A stretch of 41,065 nt of DNA from a virus, in IMG/VR virus record IMGVR_UViG_3300017950_000019, positions 1 to 41,065 of that record. One strand, given 5' to 3'. Below, in pieces: positions 26,960-41,065 of this stretch. The stretch's first letter is position 1; each line of letters starts with the position of its first letter. The position numbers and the translations under genes were made by a program. Under the pieces are notes generated by a model. That model saw only the letters and a program-made list of their open reading frames with translations. It was not told the origin of the DNA and did not search any database.

Positions 26960-28351
26960 ATGGCGTATACCATTAACAAAACAGATGGTACAATCTTTGC
27001 AGTAGTTGCAGATGGTACTATTAACACAGATTCAAGCCAAGTCATTGTAGGTAAAAACTACGCAGGCTATGGCGAGTTCCTAGGAGAGAACTTTGTTCAC
27101 TTGTTGGAAAATGCAGCAAACACAACTGCACCAGGCACACCTTTGCAAGGGCAATTATGGTATGACCAAACCAACAACGTTATTAAAGTATATAACGGCA
27201 CATTGTTCAAGTCTATTTCAGGAGCAACTTCATCATCAACAGCACCGACTAGTAATGTAGCAGGTGATCTTTGGTTTGATACAGTAAATGATCAACTTAA
27301 AGTCTACAGTGGTAGTTCTTTTGTAACAATTGGCCCAGCGTTTACTAGCGGCGAAGGCACATCTGGTGCTATTGTTGATACAATTACTGACAGTAGCCCT
27401 GGTTCAGATCATGTTGTTGTGTTGATGTATGTTAACAACGTTATTTGTGGTATTTGGTCTAAAGACGCAACGTTTACTCCGGCTGCGGCACTTTCAGGCT
27501 TTGCTACAATTTCTCCAGGTCTAAACATGAGTACCACAGTAGCTGGTGCAACATTTAAAGGTACAGCAAGTGACAGTGATGGACTAGAAGGACTCACAGC
27601 GTCCCAGTTTATGCGCTCAGATGCAGCTACTAGTACAACTGGAACAGTAAGTGTATTAAATGATACAGGTATCTATTTTGGTGCTGACAACGATGGTCGA
27701 CTAAATGTTAGTGGCACAGATGTGTACTTTCAAAACCAAACACAAGATGGCGATATTATAATTCGTGTCAACGACGGCGGTTCGCAAACTACTGCTATGA
27801 CAATTGATGGCGCATCTTCAGTTGTTACTGTTAACACCAGCTTGGTTTCATCAGGCTCGGTAACAGCTGCCAGTATATTAAATGGCAACGCTAACGGTGT
27901 CGGAAATATTGGATCAAGTACTGGATATTTTAACACAGTATTTGCTAAAGCAACGTCTGCACAATACGCTGACTTGGCGGAGCGTTTTGCATCTGATGCA
28001 ATATATGCTCCGGGTACAGTTGTTGAGCTTGGCGGCAGTGAAGAAATTACAATTTGTGTAGATGATCTTTCGCCTAGCGTGTTTGGCGTAGTATCAACTC
28101 AGCCGGCTTATACTATGAATGCAGGCTCTGGCAACAACGACACACATCCAGCAATTGCTATGACCGGGCGTGTTCCAGTTATGACAATGGGTTTTGTAAC
28201 CAAAGGTGATAGACTAGTAAGTGCAGGAAATGGCGCAGCTAGAGCAGCAACATTAGATGAGGTCACAGCCTTTAACGTAATTGGCCGTGCTCTAGCGGAT
28301 AAAACAAGTGATGGTCTTGGCACTGTAGAAGCAATTGTGAAAATTAGCTAA
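26960..28351 (+). CDS. tail-fibre-type protein with C-terminal YADLAER domain
   Basis: A 463-residue protein. The N-terminus (MAYTINKTDGTIFAVVADGT) is followed by two similar short units, GQLWYDQTNNVIKVYNGTLF (64-83) and GDLWFDTVNDQLKVYSGSSF (102-121), which are typical of cyanophage-style fibre proteins. The middle is Gly/Ser/Thr-rich beta sequence with DNDGRLNVSGTDVYF and AMTIDGASSVVTVNT. The C-terminal domain (about 329-463) starts with KATSAQYADLAERFASD and has PGTVVELGGSEEIT and FGVVSTQPAYTMN. This domain is common at the ends of marine phage fibres and resembles self-cleaving or trimerising fibre tips. Whether it cleaves cannot be seen. It is preceded by the best late promoter in the window, and a role in host recognition is likely. 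Confidence 0.75.
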   Translation: MAYTINKTDGTIFAVVADGTINTDSSQVIVGKNYAGYGEFLGENFVHLLENAANTTAPGTPLQGQLWYDQTNNVIKVYNGTLFKSISGATSSSTAPTSNVAGDLWFDTVNDQLKVYSGSSFVTIGPAFTSGEGTSGAIVDTITDSSPGSDHVVVLMYVNNVICGIWSKDATFTPAAALSGFATISPGLNMSTTVAGATFKGTASDSDGLEGLTASQFMRSDAATSTTGTVSVLNDTGIYFGADNDGRLNVSGTDVYFQNQTQDGDIIIRVNDGGSQTTAMTIDGASSVVTVNTSLVSSGSVTAASILNGNANGVGNIGSSTGYFNTVFAKATSAQYADLAERFASDAIYAPGTVVELGGSEEITICVDDLSPSVFGVVSTQPAYTMNAGSGNNDTHPAIAMTGRVPVMTMGFVTKGDRLVSAGNGAARAATLDEVTAFNVIGRALADKTSDGLGTVEAIVKIS

Positions 28352-28448: not shown

Positions 28449-29363
28449 ATGGCATACACAGCAGGAGACGTAATTTCACATGCAGATTACAATGACTTCG
28501 CTCAAAAAACAGATACAGTATGGGGTGTCGGCGACGGAACCGACGGCTATGGGCAAACTAACACAATTGGTACTGTAACAGGTGGCAACACTATCACTGC
28601 TACGCAGTGGGCAACATTGCTTGCAAGAATTACTAGTACAGCTAACCACCAAGGGACATCAATTACAGCAATAACAAGTCCAACAGCCGGTGATACTATC
28701 TCGGCATACGCTGCGCTAGCAACAAATGTTTCAGCTATACAAGATAATAACAATGCTGCTGCTAGTGGCTCCGATGCAACAGAATCTACTACAACAACTA
28801 GTGCATGGACTGCAACTGCAACAACAACTAAGACTGTTTCATTTGCAAGCTATAACCAACTGCGTTATTTCTTTAATGCAGGTGGTATGATTAGAATGAG
28901 CTTTAGTCGAACTGGCGGCTCTGCAAGTGATCAAAACACATCGTGGACAAACTTATTAGATCAAGCTGGTACAATTGTGTTAACAGGGTCCGGTAATCCG
29001 GGTCTTAATAAAACAATTGCAGGGGTAAACTACTTCGGTACTACTAGAATTGGTGGCAGCGGAACTCCAGATACGCTAGCCGAAGGAGTCGGTGCTTACA
29101 ATCTTACTGGCACCAGCCAAACACTTTACAAGCAATTTGCTACTACATACACTTATACATCAAACTACACTGAAATTACAGCAACAATCAGTGGATCAAC
29201 TATTACATTCGTAGTAACGCTAAATGATGTTAGTACACCAGGTCTTGATAGTATTGATGGAACACTTACCATGAACACTGTAGTTCGTCAACCGTCAACT
29301 ACATACATTGCAAGTACATGGGGTACAGTAACACAAAATACTGCATCCTGGACGCTAACTTAA
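28449..29363 (+). CDS. tail-fibre-type virion protein
   Basis: A 304-residue protein rich in Thr, Ser, Ala and Gly. The N-terminus MAYTAGDVISHADYNDFAQK and the following TVWGVGDGTDGYGQ resemble the start of small structural proteins in marine phages. A helical part (ATQWATLLARITSTANHQG, about 51-69) is followed by beta-rich sequence with YFFNAGGMIRMSFSRTGG near 138-155. Cysteine is absent. It has no enzyme motif and I cannot give it a T4 name. An AAAAGGAA site lies 11 bases before the ATG. It is the last of the structural genes; a strong hairpin then separates it from the accessory operon. Confidence 0.65.
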   Translation: MAYTAGDVISHADYNDFAQKTDTVWGVGDGTDGYGQTNTIGTVTGGNTITATQWATLLARITSTANHQGTSITAITSPTAGDTISAYAALATNVSAIQDNNNAAASGSDATESTTTTSAWTATATTTKTVSFASYNQLRYFFNAGGMIRMSFSRTGGSASDQNTSWTNLLDQAGTIVLTGSGNPGLNKTIAGVNYFGTTRIGGSGTPDTLAEGVGAYNLTGTSQTLYKQFATTYTYTSNYTEITATISGSTITFVVTLNDVSTPGLDSIDGTLTMNTVVRQPSTTYIASTWGTVTQNTASWTLT

Positions 29364-29386: not shown

Positions 29387-29419
29387 CTGTTTGCATGCTA
29401 ACTACTAGCATGCAAACAG
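29387..29419 (+). promoter_or_regulatory. perfect 14-bp hairpin covering the start of the accessory operon
   Basis: CTGTTTGCATGCTA (29387-29400) and TAGCATGCAAACAG (29406-29419) are exact reverse complements with the loop ACTAC. GGT (29382-29384) and ACC (29420-29422) can extend the stem past a two-base bulge. Both candidate start codons of the next gene (29395 and 29410) lie inside the stem, one in each arm. No T run follows on either strand, so it is not a classical intrinsic terminator. It could block translation starts, be an RNase III-type processing site, or be bound by a dimeric protein as DNA. Confidence 0.8.
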
Positions 29420-29715
29420 ACCAACTCTCCCAAAACATTAAAACTAGATTTGATCACCAGCAAGCCAGAATTGTCTTGCGGGAAACGTACGAAGCCAAGA
29501 TGCTTTTTGCGCACGATGGTGGTATGTGGAAGGCATCACCAGACTTGATCGTATTATGTGATTGTTGTCAAGATTCACGTGTAGTACTCGAAGATTATTA
29601 TAATACACCGGTTAGCATAGACCCACGTGAACTTAAAAAATTAGCAATGCAACGATGGCAAGAACAAATGAATGCTTGGCAAGTTGAATACGATGAAATT
29701 TCTAAACAACGATGA
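29395..29715 (+). CDS. small conserved phage protein of unknown function
   Basis: Up to 106 residues, starting at 29395 (AGG 11 bases upstream) or at the second ATG, 29410; both lie in a hairpin. Visible features are AKMLFAHDGGMWKASPDLIV (35-54), a cysteine cluster CDCC (55-58), DPRELKKLAMQRW (76-88) and a helical, charged C-terminus ending EISKQR. I recall similar small proteins in T4-like marine phages without a known function. It opens the accessory operon, and its last bases overlap the next gene as ATGA. The cysteines might bind metal, but the spacing is not a standard site. Confidence 0.65.
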   Translation: MLTTSMQTDQLSQNIKTRFDHQQARIVLRETYEAKMLFAHDGGMWKASPDLIVLCDCCQDSRVVLEDYYNTPVSIDPRELKKLAMQRWQEQMNAWQVEYDEISKQR

Positions 29716-30500
29716 CAACAGGTGCCTTACTTTTTGCGTTCGATAGTGAAATACAGTATACCAAGCTTGCTGTTGAATGCGCCCGGCGAATAAAGAAACA
29801 CCTTAACATTCCAGTAACATTGGTTACTGACAAATCTGTTGATTCAGTTATGTTTGACAGTCAAGTTATAGTTGATCGCGGTAAAAACACTAATAGGCGA
29901 TATTTTCATGACAGAAAAGAAACAACAACTTGGTATAACTTTGGCAGAAACGCTGCACTTGATCTATCACCTTACGATAGAACATTATTAGTTGATACAG
30001 ATTACATGGTCAACGACGATTCGTTGGCACCATTACTAGATAGTTCACAACCGTTTTTGTGCCACAGACATGTTCGTAGTATACATCAGCCATTGCCGAG
30101 ACTACAAACGTTTGGAACAAAAAATTCACACATGTGGTGGGCAACGGTAGTCATTTTTGACCGTCACAGTCAATTTACACAAGATGTGTTTGATATCTGG
30201 AAAATGGTAGAACAAAATTATGCACACTATGGCACGTTGTTTGGATTTAATACAAGACAATACCGAAACGACTTTGCGATAAGCATTGCACTATTGTTAG
30301 CCAATGGGAATACACATCCACATCAATGCGAAATTCCGTGGCCAATGGCAAATGTAGAAACTGATGTGGAAATTGATTTAGTTGATGATACCTGGTGGAT
30401 TGAATACACCAATGATAAACGCAAAAAGAAAATTTGTGTTAAAAATCACGATTTACATGTTATGTGCAAGAGTTATTTGGAGAAACTGTATGCAGTATGA
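29712..30500 (+). CDS. GT-A-like glycosyltransferase (first of three)
   Basis: A 262-residue protein with a glycosyltransferase-A-like layout: an N-terminal strand-helix start (GALLFAFDSEIQYTKLAVEC), HLNIPVTLVTD (30-40) and a DxD motif in LLVDTDYMV (Asp95, Asp97), which in GT-A enzymes holds the metal and nucleotide sugar. Later come HMWWATVVIFDR and RQYRNDFAISIALLL, where such enzymes have acceptor-site residues. There is no signal peptide or membrane segment, so it should act in the cytoplasm. It overlaps the preceding gene by four bases and the next by 11, so it is part of a coupled operon. The donor and acceptor cannot be told from sequence; an inactive or non-sugar role is possible. Confidence 0.65.
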   Translation: MTTGALLFAFDSEIQYTKLAVECARRIKKHLNIPVTLVTDKSVDSVMFDSQVIVDRGKNTNRRYFHDRKETTTWYNFGRNAALDLSPYDRTLLVDTDYMVNDDSLAPLLDSSQPFLCHRHVRSIHQPLPRLQTFGTKNSHMWWATVVIFDRHSQFTQDVFDIWKMVEQNYAHYGTLFGFNTRQYRNDFAISIALLLANGNTHPHQCEIPWPMANVETDVEIDLVDDTWWIEYTNDKRKKKICVKNHDLHVMCKSYLEKLYAV

Positions 30501-31269
30501 AGATGATCGAGGATATCTAATTGTTGCAGGAACTTCCAACGATGTTGACTATGTTTCGTGTGCAGAAACGCTTGCAAAAAGTCTCAAGCACTGGCATCCA
30601 GATGCAAAGATTTGTTTGGTCACAGATCATGAGAACTATGAAAATCCTCTTTTTGATTATATTAGGCAGTTTCCGCAAGGCAATACAGGCGGCTGGTCCA
30701 CTGATTGGCAAGTATTTTATGCTAGCCCGTTTCACGAAACTGTAAAATTAGAAGCAGACATGGTTGTTAGTGGCCCAGTCGATCATTGGTGGCCGCTATA
30801 TCGAAACAAGCCGGTTTGGATTAGCACTGGTGCACGGGACTTCCACGGAACTACATCAACAGTACGCCATTATAGAAAAATATTTGATCATAACAATTTA
30901 CCTGATGTATATAATGCAATCACTTACTGGAGAGTAAGCCCTGACGCAGAAAGATTCTTTAATAACGTAAAACAATGCTTTTACGATTGGGATAAAATCA
31001 AACTTAGCATTAAACTAGGCAATGACGAAATAGCCAATACAGATTTAATTTATGCATTGAATAGCAGAGATTTTGTTACTCCTGGCATTGGTCCTCAAAT
31101 TGTGCATATGAAACCAAGAATACTTGGTACTAGTGCAGTTGACTGGACAAAAGAGCTAACATGGGAAGTAGACAACGGAGTGCTCCGCATCAATGGGCAT
31201 AATCAATACGGATTTGTTCACTATCATCAAAAAGAACTAGCACAACAATTAGGGCAGTACTATGACTGA
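30490..31269 (+). CDS. GT-A-like protein (second of three)
   Basis: I chose the ATG at 30490, which overlaps the preceding gene by 11 bases; a frame extending back to 30382 lies wholly inside that gene. The 259-residue product has GYLIVAGTSNDVDYVSCAET (8-27), HPDAKICLVTD (36-46) and VKLEADMVV (85-93), where the usual DxD is replaced by ExD (Glu88, Asp90). The C-terminal part includes GARDFHGT, NDEIANTDLIYALNS and a final GFVHYHQKEL. It shares the general layout of its neighbour (LVTD after the first strands, then an acidic metal-like motif) but is clearly diverged. It overlaps the next gene by eight bases. Confidence 0.6.
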   Translation: MQYEDDRGYLIVAGTSNDVDYVSCAETLAKSLKHWHPDAKICLVTDHENYENPLFDYIRQFPQGNTGGWSTDWQVFYASPFHETVKLEADMVVSGPVDHWWPLYRNKPVWISTGARDFHGTTSTVRHYRKIFDHNNLPDVYNAITYWRVSPDAERFFNNVKQCFYDWDKIKLSIKLGNDEIANTDLIYALNSRDFVTPGIGPQIVHMKPRILGTSAVDWTKELTWEVDNGVLRINGHNQYGFVHYHQKELAQQLGQYYD

Positions 31270-31606
31270 AGAAGAACTAGCACAATTGTTTGATCAAATA
31301 ATAGCGGACAATAAACCGGTTGACTACGAATACAGATTGTACTATAATAAAGAAACTGGGCAACCCTTGTTCTACAGTATGGAAGAACTCGACGGCGATT
31401 ATATTAAAGTAACACAAGAACAACATAGCCAAGGTCGCTATGATATACTTGTTCGTAAAGGCAAAATTGTTAGGCAAAATGATTCAGTTAGTTGGACAAA
31501 ACTAGCACCATCTGAGACTGGTACTAGGTGTAGAGCTGATAATGTAATGATTGTAGACAACAACAGTGATATTAAGTGGGCTAGTAAAACATATTATTTA
31601 AAGTAA
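31262..31606 (+). CDS. small conserved phage protein of unknown function
   Basis: A 114-residue soluble protein that starts within the end of the preceding gene. Residues 1-20 look helical and acidic (MTEEELAQLFDQIIADNKPV), followed by EYRLYYNKETGQPLFYSMEE (23-42), GDYIKVTQEQ and YDILVRKGKIV. This pattern of a short beta unit ending in RKGKIV is familiar from marine T4-like phages, but its role is unknown to me. It has no catalytic motif, signal peptide or membrane segment. It may be a partner of the enzymes around it, judged from operon position only. Confidence 0.6.
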   Translation: MTEEELAQLFDQIIADNKPVDYEYRLYYNKETGQPLFYSMEELDGDYIKVTQEQHSQGRYDILVRKGKIVRQNDSVSWTKLAPSETGTRCRADNVMIVDNNSDIKWASKTYYLK

Positions 31607-31635: not shown

Positions 31636-31971
31636 ATGAAGTATATATTAAATGCATTTATTGCAGGAATACTAGTACTACTACCAGCAACAGTGTTGTC
31701 GCAAGAACAAGAAACTAAATTTTTTCTTACTACACAACCTTGTGCACCGGTTATTCAGATGACTAATACGGTTATGAACAATTATGGCGAAAAACCTTTG
31801 CACAGTGGCAGAGGCATGCAACGGAGTTCATCTGACAGCAAAGAGTATTGGAGTTCAATGATGTTTTTTGTTAACCAAGACTCGGGCACCTGGACACTAG
31901 TGAGTTTGTATGATGACGGAACAGCGTGCTTGGTTGCTAATGGCGGCGACTTTAAACCTTACTCAAAGTAA
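31636..31971 (+). CDS. small secreted protein with signal peptide
   Basis: A 111-residue protein with a clear N-terminal signal sequence: basic start MKY, hydrophobic core ILNAFIAGILVLLPATV (4-20) and a plausible cleavage after VLS or SQ (22-23). The mature part of about 88 residues has two cysteines, Cys36 and Cys98, which could form one disulphide in the periplasm. It also has SKEYWSSMMFFVNQDSGTWT and LYDDGTACLVANGGDF. It has no lipobox cysteine at the cleavage site and no transmembrane segment beyond the signal. I recall similar phrases in other marine T4-like phages, without a function. It lies between the second and third GT-A-like genes, which suggests a link to changes at the cell surface. 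Confidence 0.75.
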   Translation: MKYILNAFIAGILVLLPATVLSQEQETKFFLTTQPCAPVIQMTNTVMNNYGEKPLHSGRGMQRSSSDSKEYWSSMMFFVNQDSGTWTLVSLYDDGTACLVANGGDFKPYSK

Positions 31972-31985
31972 ATTACGGAGTTAAC

Positions 31986-32912
31986 ATGGATTCAATTGAT
32001 ATTGCCGATTTGGACTGTATCTATCTTTCTTACGATGAACCACAAAAAGAAGAGTTTTGGGTTAAGATACGCAACATGGTTCCGTGGGCAAAACGTGTTG
32101 ATGGGGTGGAAGGCAGCGATGCTGCACACAAAGCCGCAGCACAAGCAAGCGACACTGAACGTTTTATATTAATTGATGGTGACAATCTTCCCGAGGAGTC
32201 TTTTTTCAATCAAACCATTGAATACAAGGACAGTAGCTACGAAAAGGCAGTTTATCGCTGGAGGGCACGTAATCATGTTAATGGTTTGATGTATGGTAAC
32301 GGCGGCATGAGTTCTTGGACAAAAGAGTTTGTTATGAACATGCGCACACATGAAGCAAGTGGAGGCGCTGATGATACTGATGTAGAGTTTTGTTTTGATC
32401 CGCTGTACTGGCCGATGTACAATTGCTATTCAACTACGCATCCAAATGGAAGTGCTAAACATGCCTGGCGTGCTGGCTTTCGTGAAGGTGTAAAGATGTG
32501 CCTTGACAGAGGACGCAAACCAAGTGTTAGCGAATTTAAAGAACGGGTGCATAGTCGCAATCTCGATCACTTGACTGTCTGGCAAAATGTAGGCAGTGAT
32601 GCGGATTACGGATTGTGGGCAATTATCGGCGCAAGACTCGGAACATACAAAACCATGCTAACAGATTGGAATCACAAAGAAGTGCAGTGGTTCGATAATC
32701 TAGAACAAATTTGGAACAAAATAGAAAACACTGATCCACTTAACATAATCGAACAACATGCTACCGCATTAAACAGACAATTAGATTTGCCAATGAACAC
32801 ATTTTCTCCTGAACAGAGTAAATTTTTCAAACATCACTATCGTAGTAACTGGAATAATAAAAATATCATGACTCGTGAAATTGATGTTATTAGAGCACAA
32901 GAAGGATGGTAA
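31986..32912 (+). CDS. GT-A-like protein (third of three)
   Basis: A 308-residue protein. The first 70 residues look like a glycosyltransferase-A core: LDCIYLSYDEPQKEEFWVKI (9-28), VPWAKRVDGVEGSDAAHKAA (32-51) and RFILIDGDNLPE (59-70), in which Asp64 and Asp66 form the DxD. Later parts include GNGGMSSWTKEFVMNM, YSTTHPNGSAKHAWRAGFRE and a helical C-terminus. It differs from the two GT-A-like proteins upstream. Such proteins occur in marine T4-like phages, usually unnamed. It starts 14 bases after the secreted protein gene and ends one base before the first radical SAM gene, so it belongs to the same transcript. Confidence 0.62.
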   Translation: MDSIDIADLDCIYLSYDEPQKEEFWVKIRNMVPWAKRVDGVEGSDAAHKAAAQASDTERFILIDGDNLPEESFFNQTIEYKDSSYEKAVYRWRARNHVNGLMYGNGGMSSWTKEFVMNMRTHEASGGADDTDVEFCFDPLYWPMYNCYSTTHPNGSAKHAWRAGFREGVKMCLDRGRKPSVSEFKERVHSRNLDHLTVWQNVGSDADYGLWAIIGARLGTYKTMLTDWNHKEVQWFDNLEQIWNKIENTDPLNIIEQHATALNRQLDLPMNTFSPEQSKFFKHHYRSNWNNKNIMTREIDVIRAQEGW

Positions 32913-32913
32913 C

Positions 32914-33987
32914 ATGACAAACTCTGTTGCAACCTTGTTTGCTAATCTTGGCTCTGGCTACAAGCACACAATGAAAGCAATGCCACGTGGCAAGGGCGAG
33001 ACACAACCAATTGCATTTAGTTGTAATGTTCCGCACAAGGTTGTTGCCATTGACGACAACTTAAATTGTTTGTTATGTATTTGTGATGGATGGCTTCCGC
33101 TTCCTGTTGGGCAAGTACAGGATTTTGAAAGTTTAGCTGACGTATTTTCTAGTCCAAAAGCAAAAATTCTTCAGGATGATATTGATGCAAAGAACTACAC
33201 ATGGTGTGCTGTACAACACTGTGGAATTAAACACGGCGACATTGAGCAATCGTATTACGAATTAGCTATTAATATTGATCGAAGTTGTAATTTACAATGC
33301 CCTAGTTGCCGGCGTGATAAGTTTATGCTAACATCAGGGCCAGTGTACGACAAGAAGATTGACGCTGCAATGCGAATTTTAGGTTGGCTAGAACAACTTG
33401 ATGATAAAATTCATATTGTACTAAGCGGTGATGGGGATCCATTGGCTAGCTTGGTTATTCGCCCGATGATTAAAAACTGGAAGTACAAACCTAACCAGAT
33501 ACTCACACTAAAAACCAACGGGTTGTTATTGCGGAAACAACTTCACAACACCGAAATGCTTAAAAATGCAAATTTAAGTATAAGCATTGACGCCGGCAGT
33601 AAAGAAGTTTTTGAAAATATTCGACGTGGAGGCAACTGGGAAGTGCTGCTAGACAACTTTGATTTTTTAGTTGAAAATAACAAGCAAAAAGATACTGTAT
33701 TAAACTTCACTATACAAAATAATAACTATTTTGATTTAGAGAATTTTGTAAAGCTTTGTGAAAAATATCAGTTCAATGGATCTGTTGCTAAATTAGATGA
33801 CTGGGGAACATGGAATGATGAAACAGTCTCTAACCCAGATGACTGGACTCAAGAAAATGGTTACTTTTTTGATCATGATGTGTTACACTCACAGCATGAG
33901 AATTATGAAACAGCTAGGCAAATATGCACTAAGTTTTTGGACCATCCATTGGTGGGTATTAATCCGTCAGTGATAGAAAGATTGTAA
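32914..33987 (+). CDS. radical SAM protein 1, divergent, with N-terminal cysteine module
   Basis: I chose the ATG at 32914, one base after the previous stop, over a frame extending back to 32875; the product has 357 residues. The radical SAM 4Fe-4S site is CNLQCPSC (Cys125, Cys129, Cys132). Where the other family members have GGEP it has SGDGDP (171-176), and ISIDAGS follows at about 223-229. The N-terminal module has cysteines at 37, 52, 55, 57, 98 and 103, with CDGWLPLPVG (57-66) and a second pair in YTWCAVQHCG. That spacing resembles an auxiliary-cluster (SPASM/twitch) domain, here placed before the core instead of after it. It is the most divergent of the six paralogues. Reaction and substrate are unknown. 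Its stop overlaps the next ATG as TAATG. Confidence 0.88.
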   Translation: MTNSVATLFANLGSGYKHTMKAMPRGKGETQPIAFSCNVPHKVVAIDDNLNCLLCICDGWLPLPVGQVQDFESLADVFSSPKAKILQDDIDAKNYTWCAVQHCGIKHGDIEQSYYELAINIDRSCNLQCPSCRRDKFMLTSGPVYDKKIDAAMRILGWLEQLDDKIHIVLSGDGDPLASLVIRPMIKNWKYKPNQILTLKTNGLLLRKQLHNTEMLKNANLSISIDAGSKEVFENIRRGGNWEVLLDNFDFLVENNKQKDTVLNFTIQNNNYFDLENFVKLCEKYQFNGSVAKLDDWGTWNDETVSNPDDWTQENGYFFDHDVLHSQHENYETARQICTKFLDHPLVGINPSVIERL

Positions 33988-34028
33988 TGTCCAACGGAAC
34001 AGTAATTGGATTTTTTCCCTGGGCGTAG
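33987..34028 (+). CDS. 13-codon leader reading frame before radical SAM protein 2
   Basis: ATG at 33987 overlaps the previous stop (TAATG) and encodes MSNGTVIGFFPWA followed by TAG (34026-34028). The frame then continues open through QQKLFGLDV into radical SAM protein 2, so this is either the separated true N-terminus of that protein (one nonsense codon) or a real short peptide. The peptide has no cysteine and ends in an aromatic FFPWA. Confidence 0.4.
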   Translation: MSNGTVIGFFPWA

Positions 34029-34055
34029 CAACAGAAATTATTTGGATTGGATGTA

Positions 34056-35483
34056 ATGCAAAATAAAGGCGATGAAGTCGGTGCAGACTTTAAAAGTAAG
34101 TTTTTAAGTGATGCAGAAATTGCACAGCAAAAATTAGACACAATAAGTCCCAGCATGTGCCTTGCTAAGTGGAAGCAACTCAGCTTGCACCTTACTACTG
34201 GAATGAACAACAGTTGCTACCATCCGCCATTGCACAGGGCAGATGCAACAGCTATTAAGAAAAATCCCAGTGCGTTACATAATACAGACTACAAAAAGCA
34301 ACAACGCAAGCTAATGCTAGAAGGTGTGCGACCAAGCGAGTGTGACTACTGCTGGAAGATGGAAGACAATGGAAAACTAAGCGACAGGCATTATCGCAGT
34401 GGCGAACCGTGGGCAATTAAAGACTTTGAAAAAATAACAAATGCAAATTGGGATGAAGATATTACTCCTAGTTATGTCGAAGTAGACTTTAACAGTGCAT
34501 GCAATCTAAGTTGTAGCTATTGCTCGCCGCAATATAGTTCAACTTGGATGGCCGAAACAGAAAAGTATGGCGCTTGGCCAACTAGTACTCCGCACAACGA
34601 TCCTACACATTTTGCAGGAGAACGCAAGCCTATACCTGCTAGAGAATACAATCCATATGTAGAAGCTTTTTGGGAATGGTGGCCAACATTGTATCCAGAG
34701 TTGGAACACTTTCGGATGACTGGCGGCGAGCCACTAATGGATAAAAACACATATCGAGTGTTTGATCATGTGTTAGCCAATCCCAAACCAGACTTGCATT
34801 TAAGTACAACATCTAACTTTAGCGTAGATGAAAAATTGTGGCAAAAATACAAAAACTATGTATCCAAGTTGTGCAGTACGCACGGTAACGTAGAACACTT
34901 CATGCAGTATGTAAGCCTAGATGGAATGTTTGAACAAGTAGAATATGTCCGACATGGCCTTGACTTTGACCTGTTGTGGGACAGAGTACATCAATTCTTG
35001 CGTGATATACCGGAACGCAACAGTGTTACATTTATCATAACAATGAGCAATTTAAGCGTGACCACTCTGCACAAATTGTTTGCTGCCATACTGGAATTAA
35101 GACAAACATACAGTACAACATACCAACGAGTGTGGTTTGATACGCCTGTGTTGCGCACACCAACTTGGCAAAGTCTGCAACTATTGCCTGAGAGCTATGT
35201 ATACGAACTTGACGCTATCAAGTCTTGGATGTTGAACAATCTCGAAACTGAAGCTACCCGGTTTCACGGATTTAAGGACTATGAAGTTAACCGTCTAGAC
35301 AGAGACATTGCTTGGATGCGTAACGGGCAAAAATTATCTCCAGAATACATTAATCGTAATAAAGCAGATTTTTATAGATTTTTCAACGAGCATGACCGTC
35401 GCCGAAACACAGACTTCTTAAAGACATTCCCCGAAATGGCAGACTGGTGGAATGATTGTAAATATCAAGCCATTAACACATAA
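34056..35483 (+). CDS. radical SAM protein 2 (subtype A, twitch-like)
   Basis: 475 residues from the ATG at 34056; a TTG at 34047 is also in frame. The core site is CNLSCSYC (Cys149, Cys153, Cys156), followed by SSTW and TGGEPLM (222-228), and later VSLDGMFEQVEYVRHG. The N-terminal module has Cys35 in SMCLAKW, Cys54 in TTGMNNSCYHP, and Cys96/Cys99 in CDYCWKMED, the order found in the subtype A paralogues. In radical SAM enzymes the core cluster splits S-adenosylmethionine to a 5'-deoxyadenosyl radical; the extra cysteines could hold an auxiliary cluster. The C-terminus has the shared DRRRNTDFLKTFPEM. The frame extends upstream across one TAG to an ATG that overlaps the previous gene. Substrate unknown. 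Confidence 0.92.
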   Translation: MQNKGDEVGADFKSKFLSDAEIAQQKLDTISPSMCLAKWKQLSLHLTTGMNNSCYHPPLHRADATAIKKNPSALHNTDYKKQQRKLMLEGVRPSECDYCWKMEDNGKLSDRHYRSGEPWAIKDFEKITNANWDEDITPSYVEVDFNSACNLSCSYCSPQYSSTWMAETEKYGAWPTSTPHNDPTHFAGERKPIPAREYNPYVEAFWEWWPTLYPELEHFRMTGGEPLMDKNTYRVFDHVLANPKPDLHLSTTSNFSVDEKLWQKYKNYVSKLCSTHGNVEHFMQYVSLDGMFEQVEYVRHGLDFDLLWDRVHQFLRDIPERNSVTFIITMSNLSVTTLHKLFAAILELRQTYSTTYQRVWFDTPVLRTPTWQSLQLLPESYVYELDAIKSWMLNNLETEATRFHGFKDYEVNRLDRDIAWMRNGQKLSPEYINRNKADFYRFFNEHDRRRNTDFLKTFPEMADWWNDCKYQAINT

Positions 35484-35497
35484 GAGATACATACATT

Positions 35498-36850
35498 ATG
35501 CCCAAGCAAAATAACGAAACAGATTTACAATATAAAACTCGTGTGCTCGATCCATTAAGTTCCAGTATGTGCGGGGCTAAATGGTACAACGCTACTATAT
35601 GGTTAGGTTCGGGAATGACCACCAGCTGTCACCATCCTTTGCCTCATCATATATCAGTCGAAGAAGTACAAGCAAATCCAAAAGCATTGCACAACACTCC
35701 TCGTAAAAAGGAAGAGCGTAAACAAATGCAGTGCGGCGAGCGGCCAAAAGGTTGCGAATATTGCTGGAAGATTGAGGACATTGGTAGAGACAATATATCT
35801 GACAGAACATATAAAAGTGTAATCTATTCAGATGAAGATTTGCAATCAGCACATGCACTGGATTACAACGAAGATGTTGATCTTAAAACATTAGAAATTG
35901 CATTTGATAGAACTTGTCAGTTTGCTTGTAGTTATTGTAATCCAGCATTTAGTTCAACCTGGGTTAAAGATTTAAAAAAACACGGTGCATACGAAGATTT
36001 AATCAGTGATGGTCGCAATCACTTTACGCACACACATGACAGTAATCAACTGTACACTTACAACGAAACAAACCCGTACATCGAAGCGTTTTTTAAATGG
36101 TGGGAAAGCGACTTGCATAGAACACTCGACGAATTGCGCATCACAGGCGGCGAACCTGCAATGAGCGGCCACTTGTGGAAGTTGCTTGACTGGTTTAAAG
36201 AAAACAAAGGTGCAAGCACCACAAGGATTGCAATCAACAGTAACTTAGGACTTGCTACTGCCGACATGGAAAAATTGCTTGACAGAGCTGCTAGTGCACC
36301 ACTGGATATTTACACATCAAATGAAAGTATGCCAGTGCAAGCAGAATACATCCGTGACGGGCTAGAATGGGAAACCTGGGATCGAAACATGCACATGCTG
36401 GCCAGTTCAGGTAAAATACGTGGGTTGCACAATATGTGCACAATCAACGCATTGTGCTTGGAAACACTTCCTGAGTTTTTAGATTATCTATTAACATTTA
36501 AACAAACATATGGCAGAGATTTCCCAAGCTTTACATTGAACATTTTGCGTTTTCCTAGTTTCCAAAGCCCATTAGTACTGCCAGACGAAATTCGAATGTT
36601 GCATAAAGATCGTTTGCAAAATTGGCTGAACACAAACAGAGACAATACATTATTACACGAACATGAGATTAACCAAACTGAACGTCTAATAGACTATCTC
36701 GATGTTGTTAAAACCCCACACAGCGACACATTTGATATGCCAAAACTACACAACGATTTTAAACGTTTTTACACACAATACGACAAGCGCAGAGGCAAAG
36801 ACTTTGCTACTGCATTTCCTAGCATGAAAGATTGGTACAATGAGCTATAG
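35498..36850 (+). CDS. radical SAM protein 3 (subtype A, twitch-like)
   Basis: A 450-residue paralogue of protein 2 over most of its length. The N-terminal module has Cys25 (SMCGAKW), Cys44 (GSGMTTSCHHP), and Cys86/Cys89 (CEYCWKIED). The core site is CQFACSYC (Cys140, Cys144, Cys147), followed by FSSTW and ITGGEPAMSG (215-224). The C-terminal DKRRGKDFATAFPSMKDW matches the corresponding part of protein 2. It starts 14 bases after protein 2 and overlaps protein 4 by 11 bases. The duplication with protein 2 is easy to see yet far from identical, so the two copies have diverged and may act on different sites or form a pair. No substrate can be named. Confidence 0.93.
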   Translation: MPKQNNETDLQYKTRVLDPLSSSMCGAKWYNATIWLGSGMTTSCHHPLPHHISVEEVQANPKALHNTPRKKEERKQMQCGERPKGCEYCWKIEDIGRDNISDRTYKSVIYSDEDLQSAHALDYNEDVDLKTLEIAFDRTCQFACSYCNPAFSSTWVKDLKKHGAYEDLISDGRNHFTHTHDSNQLYTYNETNPYIEAFFKWWESDLHRTLDELRITGGEPAMSGHLWKLLDWFKENKGASTTRIAINSNLGLATADMEKLLDRAASAPLDIYTSNESMPVQAEYIRDGLEWETWDRNMHMLASSGKIRGLHNMCTINALCLETLPEFLDYLLTFKQTYGRDFPSFTLNILRFPSFQSPLVLPDEIRMLHKDRLQNWLNTNRDNTLLHEHEINQTERLIDYLDVVKTPHSDTFDMPKLHNDFKRFYTQYDKRRGKDFATAFPSMKDWYNEL

Positions 36851-38126
36851 TTACAACAGTGCAGATCCAATTAAGATTAGGCTAGCAGATGTAAGTGAAA
36901 GAGAACGTGAACTTCTTGCCGAAAGCAAAACATTTTGTATGTATCCGTGGATACACTTGCATGCTTATCCTACAGGCGAAGCATACCCTTGTTGTCATGC
37001 CGAGATGGGTGTTGGCCAAGTTGGCAACTGCAAAAACAACACAATGGAAGAGATTTGGAATAGTCCAGAGCAAAAGCAACTGCGCAAAGACATGCTTTTA
37101 GAACAAGAAAACCCTGCGTGTGGACGTTGTTACGAACAAGAGAAAAGTGGATTCTTTAGTGGCCGTCAAAGTGCAAACAAGCACCACGGGCACCATATCG
37201 GTCGTGCACTTGACACACACGAAGACGGGCAATACGACAACTTTGAAATGACGTACTGGGACATCAGATTTTCAAACTTGTGCAATTTAAGTTGCAGAAG
37301 TTGCGGGCACATCTTTAGTAGCAGCTGGTACAAAGATCAAAGTGTACTAGCAGGACCGGGTTGGGCTAAAGAAAACAAACCAATGAACTATGCAGGTCGA
37401 TTCGAAGCTGATATGATTGAGCAGTTGTACGAGCATTTGGATCACGTAGAGCAAGTATATTTTGCAGGCGGCGAACCTTGCATGATGGACGAGCATTATC
37501 GTATACTTGAGGAATTAGAACGCAGAGGTCGATTTGATGTGCGTCTCGTATACAATACAAACTTTACAAAAACAAAATTGAAAGACCGTTTGGTATTTGA
37601 TTACTGGAAAAAATTTGATAGTGTAGCTGTAGGTGCAAGCCTGGATGGCATGGGTGCCCACGGCGAGTATATTCGCACAGGCACCAAGTGGGAAGAAGTA
37701 GAACAGAATAGACGTACTATGATGGAAGTATGTCCTAACGTTGACTTTTATATTAGTCCAACATTAAGCATTATGAATGCACTGCACTTGCCAGACTTTC
37801 ACAGGGATTGGGTCGAAAAAGGCTTGATAAAACCACAAGACCTTAATGTAAACATCTTGCAAGATCCAGATTATTTGCGCATTGATATTGCACCACAAGC
37901 ATACAAAGATCAAATTAAAGAAAAGTACGAAGCACACTTAGAATGGTTGCGTCCATTGGATCAACTAAACAGGGCCACAGTGGGATTTGAAAGTGCACTA
38001 CAATACATGGATAGCACAGACAACACTCATCTAATAGGCAAGTTCTGGCAAAAGACCAACCAACTTGACGGCATACGAAAAGAAAACGTATTGGATGCAA
38101 TACCCGAGCTGGCATCATTGAAATGA
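36840..38126 (+). CDS. radical SAM protein 4 (subtype B, SPASM/twitch-like)
   Basis: A 428-residue protein whose N-terminal module differs from subtype A: FCMYPWIHLHAYPTGEAYPC (32-51) with paired Cys51/Cys52, Cys64, then IWNSPEQKQLRKDML and CGRCYEQEKSG (Cys94, Cys97). This is the standard look of an auxiliary-cluster module placed at the N-terminus. The core site is CNLSCRSC (Cys148, Cys152, Cys155), followed by SSSW and FAGGEPCMM (208-216). GASLDGMGAHGEYIRTG comes later. It starts inside the end of protein 3 and its stop overlaps the start of protein 5 as ATGA, so the three should be made together. Family members modify peptides, sugars or cofactors; which applies here is unknown. Confidence 0.93.
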   Translation: MSYSYNSADPIKIRLADVSERERELLAESKTFCMYPWIHLHAYPTGEAYPCCHAEMGVGQVGNCKNNTMEEIWNSPEQKQLRKDMLLEQENPACGRCYEQEKSGFFSGRQSANKHHGHHIGRALDTHEDGQYDNFEMTYWDIRFSNLCNLSCRSCGHIFSSSWYKDQSVLAGPGWAKENKPMNYAGRFEADMIEQLYEHLDHVEQVYFAGGEPCMMDEHYRILEELERRGRFDVRLVYNTNFTKTKLKDRLVFDYWKKFDSVAVGASLDGMGAHGEYIRTGTKWEEVEQNRRTMMEVCPNVDFYISPTLSIMNALHLPDFHRDWVEKGLIKPQDLNVNILQDPDYLRIDIAPQAYKDQIKEKYEAHLEWLRPLDQLNRATVGFESALQYMDSTDNTHLIGKFWQKTNQLDGIRKENVLDAIPELASLK

Positions 38127-39502
38127 GCACTTGGATAGAATTTTATAATGACATAAAAGACCCAAGCTGGCCTGTTTGCGAGCAAGAATCAGACTTTCCG
38201 TCACTTCCCCAGCACATACAAGATGAATGTATTAGTGTGTATGGATATAACATCGGACAGTTTAAACACACAAGCAAACTCGTTAACAAGCCATTTCCAA
38301 TTAACACTCCAACTGCATGCCAGCTTAAATGGAATTGGAGTACAGTGTTTTTGACCACAGGCGAAACTGCTAGTTGCCATAGGACTAATCATCATAAGTT
38401 CGACACCAACATGTTCGATTTTCACAACACGCCCAGCAAGGTTGATGATCGCAAACAAATGTTGCAAGGCAAGTGGCCAAAAGTGGGTTGCGACTATTGT
38501 ATTAATATTGAAAAAGCAGGCGGCCAAAGTGACAGGATTACCAACTTGGATTTTCCTGGACAGCATGCCCCAGTTGAACTAGCTGACAACCCTATTGCAA
38601 CACAAGTAACACCAAGAATACTTGAAATATATTTTGACAATACTTGTAACCTCAAATGCTTGTATTGTGGTCCAAGATTTAGCAGTTTATGGGATGCCGA
38701 AAATGTTAAATTTGGTGATCCGGCACTTGCTAAAGATCCAAATTTGCAATCTAATAAACAAAAACTATTTGATTGGTTAAAAGTAAACGGGCAGTACTTG
38801 ACTAACTTTAATATACTAGGCGGCGAACCTTTATATCAACGTGAATTAGAAGAATGCTTGGATTTGTTTGAAGCACACCCTGCTCCGGAATTAAAATTAC
38901 AAATTTTTACAAATTTAAATGCAAAACTTGATTATGTAAAAAAAGTAACAAAACGTGTTAAACACTTAATCGATGCAAGGTGTCTACGAGAGTTTGAAGT
39001 AACTGCAAGTCTTGATTGCTGGGGACCACAACAAGAGTATGTGCGTTTTCCAATGAATTTAAAAACGTGGGAAACAAACTTTGAATATCTACTAGAGTGC
39101 GATTGGATTAATCTTATTATCAGTTCAACTGTTACTCCGTTAACTGTGAAAACATTGCCGGACTTGTTAAGCAAGGTACAAGAATGGAACAATGTTCGCA
39201 CTGTTTATCACTACCAGAACAGCGTAAACAGCCCGAGTTACATGTTTATTGATGTATTTGGAGATATCTTTTCTGAAGACTTTGACAAGGCGTTAAGCTT
39301 AAAACCAGAAAGAACACCTGAAGAAATTTCAAGTAAAAACTATTTGTTGGGTATTGCAACACAAAGTAAAAACAATGAACCAAACGTGTTTGAAATTACC
39401 GAACTATTTGACTACCTTAACAAAATGGATTTAAGACGTAAAACAAATTGGCGTGAAACATTTCCATGGTTAATTGACGAATTTAGAAAGTATGATTTAT
39501 GA
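38123..39502 (+). CDS. radical SAM protein 5 (subtype A, twitch-like)
   Basis: A 459-residue protein of the same subtype as proteins 2 and 3 but with a longer N-terminus (about 40 extra residues, including Cys19 and Cys36). The module has Cys66 (TACQLKW), Cys85 (TTGETASCHRT) and Cys123/Cys126 (CDYCINIE). The core site is CNLKCLYC (Cys175, Cys179, Cys182), followed by FSSLW and LGGEPLYQ (232-239). ASLDCWGPQQEYVRF and a C-terminal DLRRKTNWRETFPWL complete the pattern. ATGA overlaps at both ends tie it to proteins 4 and 6. The reaction is unknown; paralogy to proteins 2 and 3 is seen directly. Confidence 0.93.
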   Translation: MSTWIEFYNDIKDPSWPVCEQESDFPSLPQHIQDECISVYGYNIGQFKHTSKLVNKPFPINTPTACQLKWNWSTVFLTTGETASCHRTNHHKFDTNMFDFHNTPSKVDDRKQMLQGKWPKVGCDYCINIEKAGGQSDRITNLDFPGQHAPVELADNPIATQVTPRILEIYFDNTCNLKCLYCGPRFSSLWDAENVKFGDPALAKDPNLQSNKQKLFDWLKVNGQYLTNFNILGGEPLYQRELEECLDLFEAHPAPELKLQIFTNLNAKLDYVKKVTKRVKHLIDARCLREFEVTASLDCWGPQQEYVRFPMNLKTWETNFEYLLECDWINLIISSTVTPLTVKTLPDLLSKVQEWNNVRTVYHYQNSVNSPSYMFIDVFGDIFSEDFDKALSLKPERTPEEISSKNYLLGIATQSKNNEPNVFEITELFDYLNKMDLRRKTNWRETFPWLIDEFRKYDL

Positions 39503-40701
39503 AATTACCGCACGATAAATTCTGTGTGCTGCCTTGGGTAAGCATCGAAACATCACCGATTGGCACTGCTCGTCCTTGTTGTTTAGCCGAAGATGAAATC
39601 AAGGATGCCAATGGCGTTAAGTTTGATCTCAACAACAGCACACTAAATGAAATACACCACAGTGACTATATGAACAATTTGCGACAAGACTTTCTGGATG
39701 CAAAGAAGCCGCAGACATGCAGAAAATGCTGGAATGAAGAACGCAGTGGTCGCACCAGCAAGCGCATGCACACATTAAATCGACTTAAACATATTGTTAC
39801 AGACACAGAATGGAGCAAAGATGCTAAACCTCTTGTGTTTATTGATTTTAAACTAGGCAATATTTGTAACCTTAAATGTCGTATTTGCGGAAGCTGGAGC
39901 AGTAGCACATTTGCCACCGAAGAGATCAAGTTTGAAGGCAAGGACAGCTTTCATTATGAAATGCTGCAAAAAGGCGCATGGCCCAGAAAGAACCAAAAGT
40001 TTTGGGACCAAATTGATCCAATGATGGACCAAATTCGTTACTTGGAATTCACGGGTGGCGAACCATTTATGATACAAGAACACTTTGCCTTGTTGCAGCG
40101 TTGCATAGACGCAGGCATTGCAGGCAACATCGAAATACACTATAATACCAATGGTACACATTATCCAGAGAATGCCGAATCTATATGGAAACATTTTAAG
40201 CTAGTAGAAATTGCATTTAGTATTGATGATGTTGACGAACGATTCGAATACCAACGTGCTAACGCTGAGTGGCAACTGGTTAACCATAATATGGATCGCT
40301 TTGAACGGCTGCGTGATAGACTAAACAACATACAGTTACAATGTTGTGCAACTGTTAATGTGTTTAATGTAATGTATCTCGAAGGTCTGGCCAATTGGAT
40401 TGATACTAGATCCTTTGAGTTTGTATACTGGAACATGTTGCATGAAGCATACTACCACAGTGTAGGAACATTGCCCGAAGCAGCAAAACAGATAGCAATT
40501 AAACGTTTGCAAAATGCTGATGTAACTGAATTTCATAAAAAAGAATTCAATAATATTATTGACTTTATTAATAGTGGAGTCAGCCTAGACGGTAACATAT
40601 TACGCATGAAAGTAAAAGATGTAGATTGGCGTAGAAATCAAGACTTGCGTGATCACCATAAAGAACTTGCTGATGCAATTGAATATGGAGGTCCTGCATG
40701 A
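39499..40701 (+). CDS. radical SAM protein 6 (subtype B, SPASM/twitch-like)
   Basis: A 400-residue protein matching protein 4 in layout. The N-terminal module reads KFCVLPWVSIETSPIGTARP (7-26) with Cys9 and paired Cys27/Cys28, then LNEIHHSDYMNNLRQDFL and CRKCWNEERSG (Cys74, Cys77). The core site is CNLKCRIC (Cys123, Cys127, Cys130), followed by SSST and FTGGEPFM (184-191). FSIDDVDERFEYQR comes later, and a basic, helical C-terminus (RRNQDLRDHHKELA) ends the protein. Its stop overlaps the start of the nucleosidase-like gene as ATGA. Within the operon it follows protein 5 as protein 4 follows protein 3, so subtypes A and B alternate here. Confidence 0.93.
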   Translation: MKLPHDKFCVLPWVSIETSPIGTARPCCLAEDEIKDANGVKFDLNNSTLNEIHHSDYMNNLRQDFLDAKKPQTCRKCWNEERSGRTSKRMHTLNRLKHIVTDTEWSKDAKPLVFIDFKLGNICNLKCRICGSWSSSTFATEEIKFEGKDSFHYEMLQKGAWPRKNQKFWDQIDPMMDQIRYLEFTGGEPFMIQEHFALLQRCIDAGIAGNIEIHYNTNGTHYPENAESIWKHFKLVEIAFSIDDVDERFEYQRANAEWQLVNHNMDRFERLRDRLNNIQLQCCATVNVFNVMYLEGLANWIDTRSFEFVYWNMLHEAYYHSVGTLPEAAKQIAIKRLQNADVTEFHKKEFNNIIDFINSGVSLDGNILRMKVKDVDWRRNQDLRDHHKELADAIEYGGPA

Positions 40702-41065
40702 TACTGGTGGTAATAGCATTAGAAGAAGAACTGCCCGGTGCATTACCCACTGGCTTTAAAAAGTTAGTAACCGGTGTCGGAAAGGTTAATGCAAGTATTG
40801 CATTAACTACGGAATTGTGTTATAATAGTTCTATTAGTTATAGTAAAGTAATAAACTACGGATCAGCAGGCGGCATTGCTGAAATAAAAGGACAACTAGT
40901 GGGTATAAGTGCAGTTATTGAAAGAGACATGGATTGCACTTCGCTTGACTTGCCACTTTATGTTAGCCCTGGCGACGAAGAACAAATGATTATTTGTCAA
41001 ACCAAGCACGATAGTTTGTACGTATGCGGCACCGGTGATAGCTTCAGTGTGCCGCATATCAACTA
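40698..41065 (+). CDS. MTA/SAH nucleosidase-like (phosphorylase superfamily) protein, partial
   Basis: 122 codons are visible before the right edge; the ATG overlaps the stop of radical SAM protein 6. The sequence follows the MTA/SAH nucleosidase (Pfs/MtnN) pattern: MILVVIALEEELPG, with Glu11 where the E. coli enzyme has catalytic Glu12, TGVGKVNASIALTTEL (25-40), VINYGSAGGI (51-60), ERDMDCTSLD (75-84) and CGTGDSFS (110-117), which matches the GDxF turn. The other catalytic residues (E. coli Glu174 and Asp197) would lie past the edge. The E. coli family enzyme also cleaves 5'-deoxyadenosine, the product inhibitor of radical SAM enzymes, so its place right after six of them is telling. Another nucleoside phosphorylase activity is possible. 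Confidence 0.82.
   Translation, partial: MILVVIALEEELPGALPTGFKKLVTGVGKVNASIALTTELCYNSSISYSKVINYGSAGGIAEIKGQLVGISAVIERDMDCTSLDLPLYVSPGDEEQMIICQTKHDSLYVCGTGDSFSVPHIN
40798..40826 (+). promoter_or_regulatory. possible internal sigma-70-type promoter (weak)
   Basis: Inside the nucleosidase-like gene, TTGCAT (40798-40803) is followed after 17 bases by TATAAT (40821-40826) with TG one base upstream (an extended -10). The -10 is perfect but the -35 matches only in TTG, and it lies within coding sequence, so it may be chance. If real it would serve genes past the right edge. Confidence 0.25.

Follow-up and report, generated by a model that had tools for sequence, protein, structure and literature searches.

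What does a phage do with six radical S-adenosylmethionine (radical SAM, rSAM) genes in a row, and do these genes belong together? The question is raised by IMG/VR record IMGVR_UViG_3300017950_000019, a linear virus record of 41 kb (41,065 nucleotides, the whole of which is called the window below), in which six adjacent plus-strand rSAM genes, R1 to R6, and the start of a nucleosidase gene truncated by the window end occupy positions 32914 to 41065. A first-pass annotation had recognized this row and taken it for a dedicated pathway that would modify a glycan, protein or peptide in several steps, with no visible substrate. We find that the genes do belong to a co-inherited and selected set, but that the conserved unit consists of five enzymes, R2-R3-R4-R6-R7, which are near-single-copy orthogroups in a fixed order; four of them lie in the six-gene row, the fifth (R7) lies beyond the window, and R1 and R5 are accessory. 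This unit is real and under selection; GT-A-type genes are linked to it, and so is a fibre in the phages and in one bacterial genome. A multi-step modification fits these results, and gene linkage now points to the fibre or a fibre glycan as its substrate, without proving it; we give a probability of about 0.42 to the reading that the unit is a portable cassette decorating one or the other.

The conserved unit was defined on viral loci recruited with R4, R2 and R5 (the best 80, 80 and 25 were retained, each flanked by no more than 10 kb). From 184 such loci, representing 131 IMG/VR contig groups, 583 rSAM open reading frames (ORFs) of at least 300 amino acids (aa) were clustered at 45% identity, giving 47 clusters, five of which cover 488 of the ORFs: R2 is found in 111 contig groups, R3 in 98, R4 in 93, R6 in 90 and R7 in 85, with at most three per contig group. 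The usual gene order is fib2 fib3 s102 GTa GTa s115 GTb R2 R3 R4 R6 R7 U361 NodU. Because these loci had come from rSAM queries, loci were also recruited with two neighbours, s102 (best 80 of 389) and U361 (best 80 of at least 542), and the counts cover the non-redundant loci, 36 and 66 respectively, in which an anchor gene was recognized and the needed side extended for 9 kb, gene labels in these loci, and in the bacterial GTb and U361 stretches described below, being best profile matches. All 36 usable s102 loci hold fib3, GTa, GTb and R2, with R3 in 31, R4 in 27, R6 in 18 and R7 in 4; these loci frequently stop short of the later genes, and one of them has just two R2-type genes. The 66 usable U361 loci all hold R3, R4 and R7, while R6 is present in 63, R2 in 60, a NodU-type carbamoyltransferase in 58 and an amidinotransferase in 35; the exact order R2 R3 R4 R6 R7 occurs in 35, the remainder having extra rSAM labels or gaps. 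Fifteen records were inspected whole, 12 of them about 300-344 kb long, and each has 5-13 matches to the NCBIfam family NF033640 (E <= 1e-20; some under that model's cut-off).

The first-pass annotation had named rare co-occurrence, relaxed selection and loss of the core cysteines as observations that would argue against one pathway. The genes recur together, as described above, and purifying selection on them is strong, with a median ratio of nonsynonymous to synonymous substitution rates (dN/dS) of 0.057 for R2, 0.071 for R3, 0.064 for R4, 0.069 for R6 and 0.084 for R7, and of 0.119 for fib2 and 0.135 for fib3 (17-40 usable pairs each, at 80-96% identity, with a median dS often above 1). A CxxxCxxC core and a preceding N-terminal cysteine module are present in all six window proteins, as had been noted, and the three core cysteines are retained in every aligned member of R1 to R7 (n = 16, 152, 156, 109, 31, 127 and 128, pre-filtered by length and profile score), and only two R2 and one R7 sequences depart from the conserved N-terminal cysteines. 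Outside the cluster modules, near-invariant cysteines were observed in R6 (C283, 126 of 127), R7 (C264, 128 of 128) and R2 (C465, 151 of 152; alignment protein numbering), which could be catalytic hydrogen donors.

The genes of the window that concern us here, with the number of the 131 contig groups holding each where counted, are the following.

26960..28351, plus strand: fib2, fibre-type protein with a C-terminal Peptidase_G2 (IMC autoproteolytic) domain; PHROG matches to virion structural and tail fibre families
28449..29363, plus strand: fib3, fibre-type protein without a family match; 97 of 131
29395..29715, plus strand: s102, small conserved protein; 95 of 131
29712..30500, plus strand: GTa, first copy, GT-A-like by resemblance alone
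30490..31269, plus strand: GTa, second copy, GT-A-like by resemblance alone; PHROG 1903 (unknown function), 2.6e-6
31262..31606, plus strand: s115, small protein; 91 of 131
31636..31971, plus strand: accessory small protein, signal-peptide-like (N-terminus judged by eye); PHROG 25396 (unknown function); 19 of 131
31986..32912, plus strand: GTb, predicted GT-A-type fold; 106 of 131
32914..33987, plus strand: R1, accessory rSAM outside NF033640; 5 of 131
33987..34028, plus strand: frame of 14 codons, probably left over from a 241-aa gene found in the relative L010
34056..35483, plus strand: R2, core N-twitch rSAM; NF033640 314 bits; 111 of 131
35498..36850, plus strand: R3, core N-twitch rSAM; NF033640 295 bits; 98 of 131
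36840..38126, plus strand: R4, core N-twitch rSAM; NF033640 414 bits; 93 of 131
38123..39502, plus strand: R5, accessory N-twitch rSAM; NF033640 231 bits; 21 of 131
39499..40701, plus strand: R6, core N-twitch rSAM; NF033640 331 bits; 90 of 131
40698..41065, plus strand: nucleosidase of the methylthioadenosine/S-adenosylhomocysteine (MTA/SAH) type, truncated by the window end; accessory, 14 of 131

The cassette adjoins the fibre genes of a T4-like phage, within its structural region; upstream in the window lie a late sigma factor gene and genes for T4-type baseplate wedge and hub proteins. Start and stop codons overlap at R3/R4, R4/R5, R5/R6 and R6/nucleosidase, and R2 and R3 are 14 bases apart, all as first annotated, but the leader ATG that had been counted as a further junction after R1 probably does not stand. 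The 14-codon frame that it opens (ATG at 33987) ends in TAG and aligns with the start of a 241-aa gene lying between R1 and R2 in the close relative L010; it is therefore probably a deletion remnant and no true gene junction. R2 itself starts with ATG, with a TTG further upstream at 34047 (in early searches the R2 query started at 34065 and that of the second GTa at 30499, each three codons short). Promoter- and terminator-like sites in the window were at the level of shuffled sequence, and operon boundaries are therefore not claimed.

As for the enzymes themselves, the profile search that had been proposed assigned R2 to R6, as well as R7, to NF033640, titled "twitch domain-containing radical SAM protein" (cut-off 170 bits; R2 313.9, R3 294.8, R4 414.2, R5 231.2, R6 331.4, R7 292.3), a model that names no function and does not contain the five orthogroups or the fixed cassette. 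R1 reaches 41.9 bits against the same cut-off but passes that of Pfam Radical_SAM, making it an rSAM of a different kind. All seven are predicted radical SAM enzymes, judged by cluster ligands and fold family. The combined R2-R7 profile matched best in the Protein Data Bank (PDB) to 8vpo, an unnamed rSAM (4e-10), and to viperin (1e-7), followed by the sugar enzymes BtrN (2.8e-4) and BlsE (1.2e-3) at about the level of the peptide enzymes YydG (3.3e-4) and SkfB (1.2e-3). None of the window rSAM proteins is a prokaryotic viperin by NF038283 (cut-off 180 bits; best score 33.9 bits, R6).

The window covers a fragment of the phage genome. A longer contig of the same phage, IMGVR_UViG_3300018036_001349 (locus L167), whose R2, R4 and R5 are 100% identical to those of the window, extends the map. 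Downstream of the nucleosidase it encodes a cytidylyltransferase-like protein, R7 (the seventh rSAM), U361 (358 aa), MetK (SAM synthetase), a NodU-like carbamoyltransferase and a PaaD/SufT-like protein, with an amidinotransferase on the opposite strand (L167 18953-19975) that matches AGAT (6.7e-24) and StrB-type enzymes (2.2e-17). The phage amidinotransferase keeps the residues of its family's cysteine-containing C-terminal motif. The full nucleosidase passes PF01048 (46.3 bits, cut-off 25.1) and has MTA/SAH nucleosidases as its best PDB sequence matches (4qez, 1e-7), but it falls under the NCBIfam equivalog cut-offs (NF004079, 51.6 against 169 bits; NF004168, 81.2 against 129 bits). Being present in only 14 of the 131 contig groups and 8 of the 66 U361-recruited loci, the nucleosidase is optional, and clearing of the by-product therefore does not define the set. 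MetK was found in 5 of the 15 records inspected whole.

Three genes upstream had been called GT-A-like, and a predicted structure bears this out for GTb. The GTb model (predicted local distance difference test, pLDDT, 89) has a GT-A-type fold; Foldseek returned six matches at 0.001 or less, of which four are PBCV-1 capsid glycosyltransferase entries, and structural alignment over approximately residues 3-154 gave Z 7.5-9.0 to GT-A and related nucleotidyltransferases, so that the predicted fold alone cannot separate glycosyl- from nucleotidyltransferase activity. The two GTa genes have no Pfam match and remain a resemblance, and the profiles of the second GTa, GTb, U361 and U359 found no PDB sequence at or below 0.1. 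The U361 model (pLDDT 87.8) resembles a cyclophilin barrel that carries a helical insert: the 25 best rows of the structure comparison have Z 6.6-8.8 (the next 4.3), 16 of them titled cyclophilin or peptidyl-prolyl isomerase and nine being complex entries or an engineered protein, while Foldseek gave no PDB match at or below 0.001 and matched ten uncharacterized phage proteins. PF11962 matched 5 of 77 mixed neighbour proteins (a set that held six fib2 members) and was assigned to fib2 by C-terminal sequence. The slots between core genes (67 cluster representatives) contain, among the 25 of 53 families listed, epimerase/dehydratase, DegT aminotransferase, UDP-glucose dehydrogenase, hexapeptide transferase, GHMP kinase, cytidylyltransferase and DAHP-synthetase-type families, methyltransferases and seven Radical_SAM matches.

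Relatives of these enzymes were found in bacteria. One scan of bacterial and archaeal genomes with two narrow patterns from the R4 group gave three loci, one of them a seven-gene rSAM array flanked by mfd-like and ATP-synthase genes. In a census of two phyla, with at most six candidates scored per genome, NF033640 was over its cut-off in 94 of 290 genomes of the phylum of a Bdellovibrio metagenome-assembled genome (MAG), G002, which we infer to be Bdellovibrionota, in 1 of the 148 genomes from the phylum to which the archaeal match (G003) belongs, and in none of 14 control genomes. G003, labelled Pacearchaeota, has ten NF033640 matches and a stretch (L193) with genes that look phage-like by eye; as the single carrier among the 148, it was set aside as probable phage DNA in an archaeal bin. 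Every phage orthogroup forms a clade in a tree of 172 sequences, in which R7 groups with four bacterial sequences at a support of 1.0. The largest clades free of other phage groups join R2 with 5 bacterial sequences (0.94), R3 with 9 (0.86), R4 with 15 (0.58), R7 with 5 (0.33) and R6 with 74 (0.92, a broad clade), there being none for R5. A chromosomal array near an obg-like gene (L413) has, among ten genes, the best profiles R3, R7, R6, R4, R6, R2, R3 and R2, two of these eight assignments being weak (margins of 42 and 37 bits) and the last sitting in the tree's R3 clade. The enzyme types thus probably predate the phage cassette, although the weak R4 and R7 clade supports leave doubt.

Two of the cassette's neighbours accompany the rSAM genes in some of these bacteria. 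GTb homologues (E <= 1e-15) occur in 18 of the 290 genomes and U361 homologues (E <= 1e-5) also in 18, eight genomes having both, and in each case all 18 are among the 95 genomes with an rSAM match at 1e-30 (p = 5.8e-10 for each, a value that ignores relatedness and genome size). An rSAM gene lies in the stretch around GTb in 11 of 18 cases (within 300 bases in 5) and around U361 in 5 of 18 (within 300 bases in 1), these being raw counts without a matched control from stretches some of which end at contig ends. In one genome (G167), downstream of a pheT-like gene on the chromosome, an N-twitch rSAM gene, a GTb-like double protein and an rSAM-like gene are followed by fib3, s102, GTa, GTa, a 163-aa protein, GTb and two N-twitch rSAM genes, which is the phage order, at identities of 28-42% to the window proteins (fib3, 33%). 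The baseplate, tail and fib2 queries of the window matched nothing in four 20 kb stretches of this contig (G167:C21), which by eye contain ordinary bacterial genes (gene names here and in the arrays L191 and L413 were judged by eye from translations). The module may have been gained from a phage, or the reverse.

We favour decoration of the fibre or its glycan because the five orthogroups directly follow the fibre, GTa and GTb genes in fixed order; because loci recruited by s102 or U361 still hold the cassette genes; because the cysteines are kept and dN/dS is approximately 0.06-0.08; because GTb has a predicted GT-A-type fold, fib2-type proteins carry Peptidase_G2 and sugar-nucleotide enzymes occupy the slots; and because bacterial GTb and U361 are confined to rSAM-positive genomes among the 290, with the module of G167 in phage order. 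At the host-recognition locus of these large T4-like phages, the GT-A-type transferases (GTa twice, and GTb) would put a sugar on the receptor-binding fibre, fib3 being the likeliest client, and the five N-twitch rSAMs, working in series, would alter that sugar or the surrounding fibre, for example by epimerizing, dehydrogenating, deoxygenating or cross-linking it. In many lineages the carbamoyltransferase and the amidinotransferase would attach further groups, and in some MetK would supply SAM, the nucleosidase would clear the by-product and the PaaD/SufT-like protein would aid iron-sulphur (Fe-S) cluster assembly. What the data show directly is the gene set, its order, the selection on it, the intact cluster ligands, the predicted fold of GTb and the linkage; the location of the product on fib3, the convergence of the five enzymes on one product and the chemistry of each step are what we infer. 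A mirror-tree test for the client (45 contig groups) singled out none and was not used: families correlate at 0.39-0.75, with R4 at 0.08-0.24 with all others, possibly through wrong paralogue picks.

Several points weigh against this reading, beyond the qualification on the linkage p-values above. The fixed order could stem from common descent of a single phage lineage. Vibrio phage K566 has rSAM genes of the same type, but homologues of GTa, GTb, U361 and the carbamoyltransferase were not found among 15 proteins tested around its four rSAM genes. The bacterial arrays L191 and L413 have no fibre or GT gene alongside, the bacterial link to fib3 is one genome (s102 occurs in 1 of the 290, G167 alone, and fib3 was not itself searched across them), and fibre adjacency was dropped as a general bacterial rule after a motif test in which a single locus of 41 had a fibre next to its array, leaving L406 and the G167 module as the bacterial cases used here. 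The rSAMs may act on sugar or on protein.

The enzymes may instead remodel the host surface, making or altering a lipopolysaccharide or capsule sugar, for example against superinfection, with the bacterial copies acting on their own surface. This is the published reading for the glycosyltransferases of the pelagimyophage host recognition cluster, in the text available of PMC7029224. It would suit the slot genes, among them epimerase/dehydratase, DegT aminotransferase, UDP-glucose dehydrogenase, GHMP kinase and cytidylyltransferase, and also the bacterial arrays, inside which GT2 accounts for 6 of 60 genes against at most 1 of 60 control genes (25 of 77 families listed; other Radical_SAM, 6 against 3 of 60), the controls being genes of the same loci at least five genes distant. 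We nevertheless regard it as somewhat unlikely, since the core genes are fixed while host surface antigens vary and since fib3 and s102 stay with the enzymes even on a bacterial chromosome, neither point being decisive. Direct maturation of side chains of fib3, s102 or s115, with the glycosyltransferases serving separately, appears improbable. The rSAM profile does match YydG and SkfB about as well as BtrN and BlsE, and U361, closely linked to R7, is modelled as a barrel of the cyclophilin kind, whose known examples include peptide binders; however, no peptide-maturase model comes near its cut-off for the window rSAM proteins, s102 and s115 do not look like cleavable precursors by eye, and the slot genes are of the sugar type.

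More improbable still is a free small molecule, such as a carbamoylated and amidinated aminocyclitol-like metabolite active in infection or predation. A NodU-type carbamoyltransferase and an AGAT/StrB-related amidinotransferase adjoin many of the rSAMs, and enzymes of these kinds act in aminoglycoside pathways, but the fibre genes are adjacent, two GT-A-type families belong to the core, and no export or resistance gene was recognized in the conserved set. Modification of phage DNA or tRNA bases we consider very unlikely: rSAM enzymes do modify nucleosides in other systems, yet the QueE-type matches found here are weak, partial, far under cut-off and limited to the shared rSAM core, and the cassette sits with late structural genes.

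If decoration of the fibre is the correct reading, phages and predatory bacteria would alter the fibres with which they choose prey by radical chemistry, adding a layer of host range that cannot be predicted from fibre sequence. Bolder, and rather unlikely in our estimation, is that transferable radical SAM fibre alteration is common to the large T4-like phages and to Bdellovibrio-phylum bacteria, with fibre, glycosyltransferases and rSAMs forming one module that tunes or protects adhesion. We know of no characterized fibre modification by radical SAM chemistry. Even with another substrate, the set is a conserved five-enzyme rSAM unit in an uncultivated lineage, and it supplies NF033640, whose model names no function, with a defined gene set (R2, R3, R4, R6, R7, GTb, U361 and fib3), including bacterial chromosomal versions. 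The Bdellovibrio fibre study taken up below is reportedly by Caulton.

The presence of rSAM genes in this region of such phages was known before, though without the five-enzyme core structure in the portions of the literature available. Among the papers that searches of the open-licence PMC literature listed, a corpus mostly outside subscription journals, no title or abstract beginning describes the five-enzyme cassette or the bacterial arrays. The pelagimyophage host recognition cluster (Zaragoza-Solas 2020, PMC7029224) has tail fibres, glycosyltransferases, rfaE, UDP-glucose dehydrogenase and rSAM cassettes in a variable region, the cassettes being mentioned in the text available as additions in one genome of a pair. 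By its description it is, similar to our locus, T4-like with fibre-associated rSAMs, but a five-enzyme core, a gene order, MetK, U361 and a bacterial counterpart are all absent from the same text. The T4-like contig TARA_ERS488813_N000010 (Nishimura 2017, PMC5332604), with 12 rSAM genes, an A-type carrier, grx, cas4 and paaD, was read as concerned with Fe-S metabolism; as described, it shares many rSAMs and PaaD with the longer contig here (the PaaD/SufT-like gene), but the portion available gives no orthogroups, order or fibre linkage. Lake Baikal virus VP_139 (PMC7678222) has, by description, the same functional trio as our phage, rSAM, methionine adenosyltransferase and MTA/SAH nucleosidase, interpreted there as SAM-cycle genes of a methylotroph phage, and viruses with rSAM genes are reported from the Tasman Sea and Lake Baikal in the accessible parts of PMC7150976 and PMC7678222. 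Lastly, Bdellovibrio bacteriovorus uses mosaic adhesive trimer fibres, phage-tail-fibre-like proteins, for prey recognition (PMC10769870), and the main text of that paper, to the extent available, lacks the terms "radical", "glycos" and "post-translational"; in our set a fibre-like ORF adjoins an rSAM array in the one locus of 41 counted above (L406).

That locus (G002:C55) and L192, both from a Bdellovibrio sp. MAG, show a fibre-like ORF of about 1420 aa adjoining four N-twitch rSAM genes, with a C-terminus that is by eye like that of fib2. Among 50,697 phage records, R2, U361, fib3 and GTb had no tblastn match at 1e-5. The R4 search matched only Vibrio phages K566 and K567 among phage records, at 24.5%; K566 (OZ196521.1, 255 kb) has its four N-twitch rSAM genes at 15010-21746 of locus L007, and K567 also has them. 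The bacterial genomes G236, G196, G117 and others gave up to 50 first-look NF033640 candidates each, six being scored per genome, a large undescribed expansion. In the window, a single ORF of 4501 aa (12716-26221) separates the baseplate wedge gene from the fibre genes.

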